Shown piece after piece: positions 20,143-24,824 of a stretch of 64,000 bases of DNA. Origin of the DNA: Anaerolineales bacterium. Its GTDB lineage: Bacteria; Chloroflexota; Anaerolineae; Anaerolineales; UBA4823. Location of the stretch: the NCBI GenBank assembly GCA_003105035.1, contig PQAL01000029.1, positions 1-64,000 on the forward strand. The letters run 5' to 3'. Numbering within the stretch: position 1 is the stretch's first letter; each line of letters starts with the position of its first letter. The notes under the pieces are model-generated. The model made no database searches and had not been told where the DNA came from. It was given only the letters and a program-made list of their open reading frames with translations. The position numbers and the translations under genes were made by a program.

Positions 20143-20853
20143 TCAGGCTGATTCCACGGCGGAGATCCATTGGTCCACAAGCGCAGGAACGATCGTTACT
20201 GCACTGCCCTGATAGTAATTAAATCCAGACGGAATCGCCTGCATTTCCAGGGAAACCAGGCATTTTTCGGCATCTTTGCGTGCCAGGAAGACCAGCGAGG
20301 CAAAAGGAAACACTGCCAGTGAGGTCCCCACGACCAACACGATGTCTGCTGTAGCAACATGCAATCGGCTCTCGTCTAAGCTCAATACTTCTTCACCGAA
20401 CCATACAACATCAGGGCGGAGCTGGCAATTATCTTCGCCGAGCTGTCCGAGGGTGATCGGATTTCCATCGATACGGTAGCGTAGATCAGGATACCTGGTG
20501 CTTCTGGCATATGCCAGGTTGCCATGCACATGGATGACATACTTCGATCCACCCCGTTCATGCAGCTCGTCCACATTTTGGGTGATCACCACCACATCAT
20601 AATAATTCTCCAACTTGCCGATCGCCAAATGCGCAGCGTTGGGTTTGGCTTTCCAGGCTGCTGCGCGCCTTTCATTGTAAAACTCGAGTACCAGGGCAGG
20701 ATTCTTAAGCCAGCCTTCCGGGCTGGCTACTTCCTCCCAGGCATAATTTCTCCACAGGCCGTTCATATCGCGGTAGGTAGGAAGTCCGCTCTCCGCGCTG
20801 ATCCCCGAACCGGTTAAGATGGTGATTTTCGATGAGCTTCTTTTGATGGTCAT
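20143..20853 (-). CDS. Sir2-family NAD-dependent protein deacylase lacking the zinc tetrad
   Basis: Sirtuin that removes acyl groups from lysine using NAD. The NAD-binding start TGSGISAESGLPTYRD, the TQNVDELHERGG motif and the catalytic His in HVHGN are present, as are VVWFGE and the GTS motif. A Tyr and Arg spaced YNER match the class III (SIRT5/CobB-like) acyl-binding pair. The four zinc cysteines normally found between HGN and VVWFGE are absent; the module is replaced by a short Arg/Tyr/Asp-rich stretch. Such zinc-less sirtuins are known in Bacteroidota. At 236 residues it is complete. It lies 18 bases after the aminotransferase gene and is probably in that operon. Confidence 0.9.
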   Translation of the reverse strand: MTIKRSSSKITILTGSGISAESGLPTYRDMNGLWRNYAWEEVASPEGWLKNPALVLEFYNERRAAAWKAKPNAAHLAIGKLENYYDVVVITQNVDELHERGGSKYVIHVHGNLAYARSTRYPDLRYRIDGNPITLGQLGEDNCQLRPDVVWFGEEVLSLDESRLHVATADIVLVVGTSLAVFPFASLVFLARKDAEKCLVSLEMQAIPSGFNYYQGSAVTIVPALVDQWISAVESA

Positions 20854-20871: not shown

Positions 20872-22071
20872 CTAAACGATAACTTCTCTCAGCACCTGGC
20901 AGACTCTTTCAATCTGGGCCTCCTCCATTACGCCGGAGAACGGTAAAGCCAGGCCTCGCCGTCCAAGGTCTTCTGTAACGGGGAAGGCGCCTTCCTGGTA
21001 GCCGAAGCGGTCCACCATGAAGGGCTGCAGGTGAATGGGCAGGAAATAGGGCCGGGCGGGAATGCCCTTTTCTCCCAGCTTCCTGGCGATCTCGTCTCGC
21101 TCGATGCCAGGCGCGAAGCGTACGACGTACACGAACCAGCTCACCCGGGTGGTATACCTGGCGATTTGTGGTGGTTCAACCCCGGGGATCTCGGACAAGC
21201 GCTCGTTATACCAGCCAGCAACTTTCTCTCGCTTCGCAATCAGCTCATCCAGGCGCTTCATCTGCGCCAGCCCAAGGGCGGCACTCATCTCATCCAGGCG
21301 GTAGTTATACCCCAGGTGGGTATGTTGCAGCCAGGTATCGCCTGGGGCTCGGCCCTGGTTACGCAAGGCGCGCATGAATAAAGCTGCGTCTTCGTCATCG
21401 GTAATGATCATCCCACCTTCGCCGGTGGTGATTTGCTTATTGGGATAGAAGCCGAACACACCATAATCACCCAGGGTACCGGCAGTGTGTCCTTTATATG
21501 ATGCCCCCAGTGCTTCACAGGAATCTTCAATCACCTTCAGCTTGTACTTCCAGGCTGTGTTCAAGATCAGCTCAAAGTCAACCGGCTGGCCGAAGACATC
21601 CACGGGTAGGATAGCTTTCAATTTAGCATCAGCATTGGCGCCTTTCGGAGGCAGCCAGGCCTGGGCACTCCGACCGCCTTGCATGATGTCTTGGGTGGCT
21701 GCGAAGACCAGGTATGGATCGATATTGCCTGATCGAGGCTCAACATCCACAAATACGGGCACAGCTCCTTCATATAGTAGAACGTTAGATGAAGCAACAA
21801 AGGAAAAAGGTGTGGTGATCACCAGGTCGCCAGGGCTAATCCCGGCCGCCCTGACGCATAAATGCAAACCTGCCGTACCGGAAGAGACCCCCACGGCATG
21901 CTTGCTGCCCGTGTAGCTCCGGACGCTTTCCTCGAAAAGGTTGATCTGGTCTCCCATCGATAGGCTAGGTGTGGCCATCACCCGGGCGACTGCCTGGCGT
22001 TCCTCTTCGGTCAGATCGGGGGAAGACATACTGATGGGTGGTGTTGCAGGAAGGTTATCAAATGGAGTCAT
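20872..22071 (-). CDS. DegT/DnrJ/EryC1/StrS-family PLP aminotransferase
   Basis: PLP enzyme that typically aminates a keto-sugar nucleotide. The PLP-binding Lys is K212 in FGFYPNKQITTGEGGM. The Asp of the cofactor pyridine site is in VIEDSCEALGA, and GTAGLHLCVRA is the N-terminal phosphate-binding region. Length 399 residues. The upstream partner gene encodes the lipoyl/NeuD acyltransferase fusion, so the likely product is an amino sugar that is then N-acylated, as in the PglE/PglD pair. The start lacks a clear Shine-Dalgarno. Substrate unknown. Confidence 0.93.
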   Translation of the reverse strand: MTPFDNLPATPPISMSSPDLTEEERQAVARVMATPSLSMGDQINLFEESVRSYTGSKHAVGVSSGTAGLHLCVRAAGISPGDLVITTPFSFVASSNVLLYEGAVPVFVDVEPRSGNIDPYLVFAATQDIMQGGRSAQAWLPPKGANADAKLKAILPVDVFGQPVDFELILNTAWKYKLKVIEDSCEALGASYKGHTAGTLGDYGVFGFYPNKQITTGEGGMIITDDEDAALFMRALRNQGRAPGDTWLQHTHLGYNYRLDEMSAALGLAQMKRLDELIAKREKVAGWYNERLSEIPGVEPPQIARYTTRVSWFVYVVRFAPGIERDEIARKLGEKGIPARPYFLPIHLQPFMVDRFGYQEGAFPVTEDLGRRGLALPFSGVMEEAQIERVCQVLREVIV

Positions 22072-22110: not shown

Positions 22111-23211
22111 TTAATCCGGCCAGATAGTGCCTGCCCGGACAATGCTGCCAGTGGGTACATCGCGTTTTATGGTGGCTCCATTGCCGATGCGGACCCGGTC
22201 ACCCACCTTCACGCGTAGATTGATCGTGACACCCATCCCAACCAGGGTAGCTTCCCCAATGGTCACCTCACCGGCCAGGATCGCACCTGGTGAAAGATTG
22301 GAGAAATCTCCCAAAATGCAGTCATGTGAGACGATGGCTCCGGTGTTGATGATGGCTCCGAAACCAACATGCACCTCACTGCCCACATAAGCATGCGGCA
22401 TCACCTGCACGCCATCGGATAGCACGGCACTGGGCTCAACAAATGCAATCGGGTGAACCAGCGTTGGGCAGCTGAAGCCGGCATTTGTAAGATTCTCGAA
22501 TACGCCCAGGCGAGGGGCGATATTCCCAATGCCGCCCACTGCGTTGGCTGCCAGGTGTACCCCCGCTTTTTCCAACTCTTTCAAGATACCTGCCCCGCCA
22601 AGCACGCTGACCTCCATGATTTCAGTACCGACAGGGATGCCATCGTCGACGATGCCGATGACGGTATAGCGGTCCAGATACCTGATCAAGTCGATCAGGG
22701 CTTTACCGTGACCACCCCCGCCGTACACAATGATTGCGTTTGGCTGGAAATGCTTCCCCTGGAAATCAACTGTTGAAGCAGCCGCCAGGTTAATCTTCTC
22801 CAGCACCATCTTCTCGGTGACGAACAGATCGGTTGGGAATTGGGATAGGTCAAGGTTGTGCTTGTGGGCCAGCTGAAGTGCCGGTTGGCTGATGCGCAGG
22901 TTAGCCGGTACTGTACCACCGGTTTCCTCGGCGGTGGGGATCGCCGGAGGCCTCCAATCTGGTGAACCTGCCAGGTAGCCGAAAATCTCACCCGCCTGGA
23001 CAGTCTGTCCAACCTGATGCGTCAAGCCTACCAGGTAGCCGTCAGCTTCAGCACTCAGCTCCAGGGTGGACTTGGTAGTCTCCAGGGTGCACAATTTGGT
23101 ACCCCGCACCAGGTACTGACCTTCGACAACGAGCAGCTCAGCCAGCAAAGCCCCGGGCTCGTTGGGATTTATCAATGGGATGAGGATGCGAGTTGGCTCA
23201 GGCATGTTCAT
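22111..23211 (-). CDS. Lipoyl domain + E3-binding domain + NeuD-type sugar acyltransferase fusion
   Basis: Three modules are readable. Residues 7-82 are a lipoyl-type domain with K47 in LETTKST, the lipoylation site of 2-oxoacid dehydrogenase E2 proteins rather than the AMKM biotin type. Residues 103-140 look like the peripheral subunit-binding domain that docks E1 or E3 (ISQPALQLAHKHNLDLSQF). Residues 158-366 are a NeuD/PglD-like acyltransferase: Rossmann-like start GGGGHGK (164-170) then a left-handed beta helix of hexapeptide repeats with the catalytic-type His in IVSHD. The usual E2 acyltransferase core is absent. The E1-beta gene lies upstream and an aminotransferase downstream. Inferred role: direct transfer of an acyl group from the lipoyl arm to an amino sugar. 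A second ATG (23205) is possible. Confidence 0.85.
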   Translation of the reverse strand: MNMPEPTRILIPLINPNEPGALLAELLVVEGQYLVRGTKLCTLETTKSTLELSAEADGYLVGLTHQVGQTVQAGEIFGYLAGSPDWRPPAIPTAEETGGTVPANLRISQPALQLAHKHNLDLSQFPTDLFVTEKMVLEKINLAAASTVDFQGKHFQPNAIIVYGGGGHGKALIDLIRYLDRYTVIGIVDDGIPVGTEIMEVSVLGGAGILKELEKAGVHLAANAVGGIGNIAPRLGVFENLTNAGFSCPTLVHPIAFVEPSAVLSDGVQVMPHAYVGSEVHVGFGAIINTGAIVSHDCILGDFSNLSPGAILAGEVTIGEATLVGMGVTINLRVKVGDRVRIGNGATIKRDVPTGSIVRAGTIWPD

Positions 23212-23289: not shown

Positions 23290-24321
23290 TCAACACCTCA
23301 TCTCAACGGCAGACCGGAGGATATCGTCGACTCCTGGCAGGATAGCCTGCTCAAGTGCGGGCGAAACCGGGATGGGGAATTCCTGGGCTGCAAGCCGTCT
23401 CACGGTCAGCATCTTTCCTGCCTGAGCTTCAGCCACCCGGGCGACAATCTCTGCGCCCCAGCCCAGGCTGTGGGTGCCCTCTTCAAGCACCAGAAGAGCA
23501 CCGGTACGGCTGGCTGACTGGGCAATCGGCCCAACATCAAAGGGGGCGAGCTGAGTCGGTACGACGAGCTCAGCAAACAGCTCATGTTCATAAGCCAGGC
23601 GCTGGATTGCCTGCCTGGCAAGCTCTGCCATATAACCATAGGCTGCAATGGTCAGCGTAGGAGCGGGGGCAGCCCGCAGGGCGAGCATGTAGAAGGGGAA
23701 TCTTGCTTCGCGACCACAAAACTGCACAGTTAGGTTGAATTCTGCCAGGTCGCTTTGCGCCTGGACGGGGAGTAAATACCCCAGCTTGTTTTCCAGGAAT
23801 AGTGTAGGGTCCGTTGCCTGTAGAACGCAACGATAGAGTAAGTCGCCCGGGCTACCAGTACCATCCGGCTGGCAAAAGCTCACCGGTGCGATCACCTGCA
23901 GACCTGGGATTCCCAGGTATAGCTTTTCGAGGCTCTGGCTATGTGTGGGGCCGTAACCCCTCCTGCCACCCATGGGGGTGCGAATCACAAGGGGCACACT
24001 CACCTGCTCGTTATACATCCAACGGAATTTGCTGATGTGGTTGACCAGCTGGTCTGCCATCAGGGTGACAAAATCGCCGAACATGATTTCCACCACTGGG
24101 CGTAAGCCTCGCAGGGCCATCCCGGCTGCCAAGCCGACGAAGCCTGCTTCAGAAATGGGCGTGGTGAGCACCCGGCTGGGGAAGGCGCTGGACAGTCCTT
24201 TGGTGACTTTGAAGGCACCTCCATACGGGTCCAGAACATCTTCACCTAAACAATATACCTGCTCGTTCTCAGAGAACGCACGATGCAAGGCTGTATTGAG
24301 CGATTCCAGGACAGATGGCAT
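23290..24321 (-). CDS. 2-oxoacid dehydrogenase E1 component, beta subunit
   Basis: Beta half of a thiamine-diphosphate-dependent E1 (pyruvate or branched-chain 2-oxoacid dehydrogenase type). The TPP-activating Glu is E58 in TPISEAGFVG. The conserved THSQSLE with H127 is present. The C-terminal transketolase domain shows VLEEGTHSLGWGAEIVA. Length 343 residues, complete. No alpha subunit gene lies next to it; an alpha-beta heterotetramer is required for activity in this family, so the partner must be elsewhere. An in-frame stop lies just upstream of the ATG, and no Shine-Dalgarno precedes it. It lies 78 bases upstream of the lipoyl-domain fusion. Confidence 0.92.
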   Translation of the reverse strand: MPSVLESLNTALHRAFSENEQVYCLGEDVLDPYGGAFKVTKGLSSAFPSRVLTTPISEAGFVGLAAGMALRGLRPVVEIMFGDFVTLMADQLVNHISKFRWMYNEQVSVPLVIRTPMGGRRGYGPTHSQSLEKLYLGIPGLQVIAPVSFCQPDGTGSPGDLLYRCVLQATDPTLFLENKLGYLLPVQAQSDLAEFNLTVQFCGREARFPFYMLALRAAPAPTLTIAAYGYMAELARQAIQRLAYEHELFAELVVPTQLAPFDVGPIAQSASRTGALLVLEEGTHSLGWGAEIVARVAEAQAGKMLTVRRLAAQEFPIPVSPALEQAILPGVDDILRSAVEMRC

Positions 24322-24383: not shown

Positions 24384-24824
24384 TCAACCAGAGCCTTCTT
24401 CTGGTCCCCCAGGCCGACGGTACACTGGTTTATTAATCTCAACCTTCAAGCTTTCGATATTCTCGCGCACGCGGACTTTTTCAGCTTCGGTGAGGTGAGT
24501 GGAAGCAAGCACGCTTTCCAGTAGTTTCAAGCTCTCACGCGGTTTATTGATCTGCTTGAGATAGGTCGCCAGATATTCCTGGGCCTCGAATCGGCAATGG
24601 GGCTTTTCCAGCTGGACCGCTTTGTAATACCATTCCAGGCATAGGGAGAGATTACCCAGCTTATCGTAAATCACAGCGATGTTGAGGCACATTGACGATT
24701 TATCGAGATCAGAAATATCGCTGTTTACCAGAGAAGTGAACGCTTCCAAGGCAGCCTGCAGGTTCCCAGCATCAAACATCTGGGTGCCATAATCGACACG
24801 ATTTTGGAAATCCTTGTAGTTCAT
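24384..24824 (-). CDS. Small TPR-repeat protein
   Basis: 146 residues with about three tetratricopeptide-like helical pairs: GTQMFDAGNLQAALEAFTSL, then LNIAVIYDKLGNLSLCLEWYYKA and EYLATYLKQINKPRESLKLLE. No signal peptide or membrane helix. It is probably a protein-interaction scaffold. It lies 62 bases upstream of the E1-beta gene on the same strand and may be co-transcribed, but a functional link is not shown. Confidence 0.75.
   Translation of the reverse strand: MNYKDFQNRVDYGTQMFDAGNLQAALEAFTSLVNSDISDLDKSSMCLNIAVIYDKLGNLSLCLEWYYKAVQLEKPHCRFEAQEYLATYLKQINKPRESLKLLESVLASTHLTEAEKVRVRENIESLKVEINKPVYRRPGGPEEGSG

Follow-up and report, generated by a model that had tools for sequence, protein, structure and literature searches.

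A lipoyl-NeuD/PglD fusion protein linked to a dedicated E1 in Anaerolineales: a probable E2-like acyl carrier with an amino-sugar N-acyltransferase core

In 2-oxoacid dehydrogenases, E1 reductively acylates lipoyl domains, and peripheral-subunit-binding domains (PSBDs) dock E1 and E3. To our knowledge, the acyl groups on E2-type lipoyl domains end on CoA. The DNA analysed here, a stretch of 64,000 nucleotides of an Anaerolineales bacterium (contig PQAL01000029.1; in the following, the window), raises the question whether such a group can be passed to an amino sugar instead. The initial annotation described an E2-like protein with an acyltransferase of the NeuD/PglD type in place of the E2 core and proposed a transfer without CoA. 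According to our analysis, the best explanation as a whole is an E2-like acyl carrier with an amino-sugar N-acyltransferase core that is charged by E1, and we regard it as probable.

Modules of the fusion protein

Of the three annotated modules, the lipoyl-type and the NeuD/PglD module are confirmed and the PSBD-like one is supported by its predicted fold; they lie in a single frame of 366 amino acids with an ATG start (22111-23211, minus strand). With Pfam, Biotin_lipoyl (residues 24-77, E 4e-10), PglD_N (160-241, 1e-9) and Hexapep (1e-13) were matched. The AlphaFold model of the whole protein had a mean pLDDT of 84.9 and a pTM of 0.61, with part of the C-terminal beta-helix at low confidence. 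An artefact or a chance fusion was rejected: of 251 genomes sampled from the order, 88 carry the complete architecture (by reading of the match rows; one of the 88 begins at position 22 and one stops where its contig ends), and so do two records whose titles call them chromosomes (L131, L139). For the source genome and 60 relatives, matches at E<=1e-10 were obtained in 45 of the 61 genomes, and 38 of the 61 carry the full length by the same reading. A scan of genome contigs with the fusion confirmed 144 places. The 80 listed of these form the 80-locus set, and all 80 titles name Anaerolineae or other Chloroflexota. None of the 70 plasmid records matching the window's fusion, and none of the 334 matching the second-lineage fusion described below, covered 80% of the query. 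A lipoyl-NeuD/PglD fusion was not found in the titles or abstract starts of the matches listed from the open-licence PMC literature; in the portion of PMC4875605 considered, the word lipoylation refers to fatty-acid genes. At two loci (L252 in G649, L253 in G620) the fusion was matched in part or in two frames, with both adjoining E1 genes intact. These broken genes could be assembly errors or decaying copies.

The lipoyl domain (residues about 7-82; 22966-23193, minus strand) was detected by Pfam, by profile matches to E2 lipoyl domains in the PDB and by AlphaFold, with pLDDT values of 93-98 for the residue blocks 21-90. The annotated lysine in ETTKST, K47 (codon 23071-23073, minus strand), is the presumed lipoylation site. 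Together with E44 and T46 of the ETTK motif it is invariant in all 77 aligned sequences, i.e. the window protein and 76 of the 80 loci listed. ETTK was also read in the four loci outside the alignment, of which two are matches cut short and two are cases where ORF selection had picked another frame. The source genome encodes LipA, two LplA/LipB-type proteins and a dihydrolipoyl dehydrogenase above its profile cut-off (557 vs 408.8 bits). The domain has the conserved lysine of E2 lipoyl domains, and lipoylation of K47 itself is predicted.

Alternatively, K47 might be biotinylated or unmodified and the domain a scaffold. A single Pfam model covers biotin and lipoyl domains, and BCCP folds are among the matches too, which would fit this explanation. 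AMKM-type sequences are the biotin motif and ETDK is a classical lipoyl motif. The AMKM type expected of a biotin carrier was not found, since the family has ETTK throughout, and the second-lineage fusion carries ETDK. The best NCBIfam scores over the domain belong to E2 proteins, weakly so for the window protein, and the strict linkage to E1 genes also argues against biotin or a mere scaffold. We consider this alternative extremely unlikely.

For the annotated PSBD-like stretch (103-140) the predicted fold agrees with PSBDs, but E3_binding of Pfam was not matched in the window protein at E<=0.1. Nor does this family occur among the 21 Pfam families found across 32 members of the protein family (E<=10). 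Of the families expected from the initial annotation, biotin_lipoyl and the NeuD/PglD hexapeptide families were thus recovered and E3_binding was missed. As the VIA-align search was filled by the NeuD domain and uninformative on the arm, residues 99-147 were folded alone, giving a pLDDT of 85. With this model Foldseek gave 20 PDB entries at E<=10, the first 18 of them all PSBDs of E2 or E3BP or E2 chain models. The best E-value was only 0.45, as expected for a query of 49 residues. Among ten weak matches of a profile search with the stretch were three E2 PSBDs (E 0.025, 0.085 and 0.66); the top match was an unrelated hydrolase (E 0.016). Aligned with E2 PSBDs, the stretch has three residues fewer. 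The model therefore supports, with weak E-values, a PSBD fold at residues about 105-146 (22774-22899, minus strand), predicted as a shortened domain below detection by Pfam.

The catalytic core of E2 enzymes, 2-oxoacid_dh (PF00198), is absent from the fusion at E<=0.1 and from the families matched by the 32 members at E<=10; it is present in other proteins of the source genome. An ordinary E2 was rejected for this reason.

In place of this core, residues 158-366 (22114-22740, minus strand) form a left-handed beta-helix N-acyltransferase of the NeuD/PglD/PerB type, in agreement with the annotation. The NCBIfam model TIGR03570 (NeuD) was matched over residues 160-358 with 161.1 bits, barely over the cut-off of 160.8. 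Structural comparison of this part with VIA-align ranked PerB (Z 26.8), NgPglB (25.9), VioB (24.7) and PglD (23.6) first, then LpxD (17.8). H296 (codon 22324-22326, minus strand) is histidine in 76 of the 77 fusions and aligns with His141 of PerB and with the histidine of NgPglB. In the H141N entry of PerB the substituted residue falls at this alignment position. D189, D190 and H168 of the UDP-sugar site are conserved in 77/77. As given in the portion of PMC8040287 considered, PglD acts with His125 in the sugar site, and His125 is listed with the UDP-sugar site; the counterparts of the histidine and the Asp pair were taken from there and from our alignments. H296 is presumably the catalytic histidine and the counterpart of PglD His125. 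The score, the histidine and the UDP-sugar-binding Asp pair all place the core in the NeuD/PglD family.

Dedicated E1 genes and their linkage to the fusion

Both genes annotated alongside adjoin the fusion in the window, share its direction and are separated from it by 78 and 39 bases. One encodes a dedicated E1-beta of 343 amino acids (23290-24321, minus strand; Transket_pyr and Transketolase_C by Pfam), the other a sugar aminotransferase of the DegT/PglE/PseC type with 399 amino acids (20872-22071, minus strand; DegT_DnrJ_EryC1, E 2e-107). The best NCBIfam models for the latter are PseC and LegC, both under their cut-offs. Within the window no E1-alpha gene lies beside these three genes. The best E1-alpha match of the source genome is found on another contig (C28:74499-75368) and is 68% identical to the E1-alpha of a relative. 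A Bac_transf sugar transferase gene lies upstream of it, separated by one EamA-type transporter ORF.

Several further genes were observed around these loci. The operon half with sugar transferase and E1-alpha (L077:8070-11375, on C28) lies apart from the contig with E1-beta, fusion and DegT. Upstream of it is a gene judged LexA-like by eye, relatives of which recur upstream of the sugar transferase at several loci. A small TPR protein gene (24384-24824, minus strand) is positioned between Mfd and E1-beta in the window, a place taken in several relatives by the sugar transferase and E1-alpha; in L114 a TPR gene lies between E1-alpha and E1-beta. An ATP-grasp-like protein, recognized by eye, is encoded upstream of the sugar transferase or the E1 genes in L120, L148, L173 and L175. 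Co-directional with DegT and 18 bases behind it is a Sir2-family deacylase gene (20143-20853, minus strand); lipoyl-lysine is among the substrates that bacterial sirtuins can accept. As a lipoamidase partner Sir2 was discarded, as it was never the best match in the listed neighbourhoods of 40 and 80 loci.

The conservation of the neighbourhood was examined in the 80 loci listed of the 144 places. Of the 74 loci with at least 1.1 kb of flank, 73 have a co-directional E1-beta upstream, and of the 66 with 2.2 kb or more, 63 have an E1-alpha there; L172 and L174 are exceptions without E1-alpha nearby. The sugar transferase was found upstream in 30/59, DegT within 7 kb downstream in 23/58 and immediately downstream in 17/71. 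A second set of 40 loci, partly overlapping with the first (together 120 loci), gave E1-beta in 36/38, E1-alpha in 31/34, the sugar transferase in 23/30 and DegT in 15/29. From these counts E1-alpha, E1-beta and the fusion are the core triad, and the sugar transferase and DegT are common, not constant, partners. The neighbourhood that the initial annotation had expected is hence conserved in its order E1-alpha/E1-beta/fusion, and for DegT the expectation holds often, but not always.

With E1_dh and transketolase domains and conserved positions, the pair belongs to the E1 proteins. D140, N169, H237 and R244 of E1-alpha are conserved in 58/58 sequences (Asn168 of the motif varies in 8/58), E58 and H127 of E1-beta in 65/65; we take these to be ThDP-motif and catalytic positions. 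The curated cut-offs for PDH-E1 are missed by E1-beta (181.2 vs 321) and by the E1-alpha of the source genome (245.5 vs 393.85), so the pair is a divergent subfamily. In the tree, the window's E1-beta falls in a clade of its own with other fusion-linked E1-beta proteins (support 100/100). Among 44 chosen genomes, 11 have this dedicated E1-beta (at least 360 bits), and the next E1-beta scores below 192 bits. Ten of these 11 genomes also encode the fusion; the remaining one is G054, where the gene is cut off by a contig end. In G041 the fusion is present and only an E1-beta of housekeeping type was found (best 172.7 bits). The source genome also has separate classical sets, with E1/E2 on C18 and with an E1-like protein, E2 and dihydrolipoyl dehydrogenase on C28.

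Orthologues without the lipoyl module and a second lineage

Within the order, 109 of the 251 genomes match the fusion at E<=1e-60. By reading of the match rows these comprise the 88 at full length, 15 with the NeuD part only and 6 partial. The lipoyl-less orthologues are a built-in control and provide the strongest evidence of the analysis. Neither E1-alpha nor E1-beta was detected in any of the 15 NeuD-only loci, DegT is present in 12 and the sugar transferase in 4. The order sugar transferase, NeuD, DegT in L240, L242 and L243 is that of the same operon minus the E1 and lipoyl parts. With the threshold relaxed to E<=1, nothing in the 15 loci matched E1 or the lipoyl part with more than 25 bits. 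In seven fusion loci compared, two of them with a broken or partial fusion frame, both E1 genes reached 341-431 bits and the lipoyl part 74-104 bits. The dedicated E1-beta was found in none of the lipoyl-less genomes G049, G233 and G273, which are among the 44 chosen. Together with the conserved neighbourhood and the invariant lysine, the joint absence of E1 and lipoyl module where the acyltransferase stays strongly supports that E1 feeds the lipoyl arm of the fusion. That E1, arm and acyltransferase form one functional unit is well supported by this comparison of loci.

In G273 the NeuD orthologue (L187:7007-8116) has what looks like a degenerate lipoyl-like N-terminus without the ETTK lysine, no match to Pfam Biotin_lipoyl at E<=0.01 and no E1 nearby. 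It is an apparent intermediate of module loss. In the tree the lipoyl-less rows are placed within the fusion family (fork 87/88 below the first-branching fusions) and need one change (support 56/81, 57% of bootstrap trees). Given the nested placement and the single change with weak support, the loss of the lipoyl module looks secondary, and its joint loss with E1 amounts to one or a few events. The strongest argument against the proposal, besides the partial neighbourhood evidence for DegT, is that such orthologues exist: the core does not strictly need the arm. This suggests that it can also accept another donor, presumably acyl-CoA.

A related arrangement was found in G215, which belongs to a different class of the phylum. 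Its genes run from a sugar transferase (assigned by similarity and by eye) through a Gfo/Idh oxidoreductase, a lipoyl(ETDK)-NeuD fusion, E1-alpha and E1-beta to DegT. For the oxidoreductase the best NCBIfam model is UDP-GlcNAc 3-dehydrogenase (163.2 vs a cut-off of 450), and the acceptor of this lineage is perhaps a 3-amino sugar. Counterparts of the G215 genes lie on two contigs in G358. By row reading the lipoyl part occurs only in these two of 150 sampled genomes of the class. The second-lineage NeuD domain forms a long separate branch, and its E1-beta is sister to the window's E1-beta clade (95/94). Because E1-beta groups with that of the window while NeuD does not, the arrangement may have been built twice. 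This suggests that the combination of E1, lipoyl domain and amino-sugar acyltransferase recurs.

Acyl donor, acceptor and known systems

The main alternative concerns the donor. The acyltransferase could use ordinary acyl-CoA, with lipoyl domain, PSBD and E1 serving local supply via CoA or regulation, so that the fusion merely co-locates them. The PDB titles describe NeuD, PglD and PerB as acetyltransferases with CoA or acetyl-CoA, the lipoyl-less orthologues retain the active-site residues in nearly all readable rows, and the second-lineage fusion has the canonical GVPAK C-terminus. Against this, the fusion lacks the E2 acyltransferase core, and a match to the classical E2 of the source genome was found in only 1 of the 120 loci of the two overlapping sets. 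Thus no local enzyme is at hand for a lipoyl-to-CoA transfer. Nor would CoA as the sole donor explain why E1 and lipoyl module are so strictly linked. On balance we judge this alternative unlikely.

Remodelling of the CoA site was considered as proof of a lipoyl donor and dismissed: the altered C-terminus (AGxIWP and the like) is common to the lipoyl-less orthologues, and the second-lineage fusion keeps GVPAK. Position 323 (codon 22243-22245, minus strand) is Leu in 77/77 fusions and Gln in all 13 readable of the 15 lipoyl-less orthologues. L323 would agree with a change of donor but might simply mark the lineage, and an ordinary NeuD (L200) also appears to have Leu here.

Alternatively, E1 and arm could deliver an acyl or aldehyde unit for a C-C bond on a ketosugar, yielding a branched sugar, with NeuD acting separately on acyl-CoA. 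In orthosomycin-type clusters two-carbon sugar branches are made with PDH-like E1 pairs, which would fit such chemistry. We know of no orthosomycin-type system with a lipoyl domain fused to an N-acyltransferase, and the aminotransferase in the second lineage and at many loci of the first fits N-acylation. The branched-sugar route is therefore very unlikely in our view.

Returning to the E1-charged acyl carrier, the modules, the conserved catalytic residues and the E1-lipoyl linkage come from sequence and comparison, and a mechanism can be put forward on this basis. The dedicated ThDP-dependent E1 (alpha on C28, beta at 23290-24321) would decarboxylate a 2-oxoacid and reductively acylate the lipoyl group on K47, with the PSBD docking E1 and/or E3. 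The arm would then swing to the left-handed beta-helix active site of the NeuD domain, which is probably a trimer. There the amino group of a UDP-4-amino sugar, the product of DegT, would attack with the help of H296, and we infer that the acyl group would pass over directly, without CoA. The dihydrolipoyl arm would be re-oxidised by the cell's E3, and the product could enter a surface glycan via the PglC-like sugar transferase. The presence of a dedicated E1 suggests an acyl group for which perhaps no CoA ester is at hand. That a minimal 2-oxoacid dehydrogenase complex of E1, lipoyl/PSBD arm and shared E3 N-acylates a nucleotide sugar without free CoA seems somewhat likely to us. Acyl-CoA may also serve the fusion, because its core still has the fold and active-site residues of acyl-CoA enzymes and the lipoyl module is absent from 15 of the 109 genomes matched in the order. 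If the proposal is true, the swinging-arm principle is separated from the E2 fold, a CoA-free route leads to N-acyl sugars in cell-surface glycans, and the E1-lipoyl-transferase triad can be assayed with few purified proteins.

Compared with the E2 of 2-oxoacid dehydrogenases, the fusion has the same sequence of lipoyl domain, flexible linker, PSBD and catalytic core, and both are encoded after E1-alpha and E1-beta. The core differs, with an unrelated left-handed beta-helix acyltransferase in place of PF00198, and the presumed acceptor is an amino sugar instead of CoA. PerB, PglD, NgPglB, VioB and WeeI (TIGR03570) share the core fold and the active-site residues. They take acetyl from acetyl-CoA, and their solved forms are listed without a lipoyl/PSBD arm, whereas the core of the fusion is joined to such an arm and linked to a dedicated E1.

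LpxD and LpxA, likewise left-handed beta-helix enzymes, acylate sugar nucleotides with ACP as the acyl donor. LpxD appeared at ranks 17-18 of the structural matches (Z 17.8), with entries titled 'Chasing Acyl Carrier Protein Through a Catalytic Cycle of Lipid A Production'. The proposed role of the fusion is comparable, as a carrier protein would be the acyl donor. In LpxD/LpxA the carrier is a separate ACP with phosphopantetheine, in contrast to the fused lipoyl domain here.

PglD acylates a UDP-4-amino sugar. In bacillosamine operons (PglF-PglE-PglD-PglC) NeuD is ordinary, and the fusion occupies the PglD slot. Such a row, with a Bac_transf-type gene, an ordinary NeuD, DegT and a PF02719 dehydratase, was found in other Chloroflexota (L190, L198, L200); their DegT proteins are 56-60% identical to that of the window, and no E1 or lipoyl genes are labelled in these stretches. 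The source genome has Bac_transf near E1-alpha, DegT next to the fusion (PseC and LegC cut-offs missed) and two PF02719 proteins elsewhere. From the bacillosamine-like gene row with a similar DegT, a bacillosamine-like UDP-4-amino sugar would be the acceptor in the window's lineage, and a 4-amino (or 3-amino) nucleotide sugar is the best reading for the fusion.
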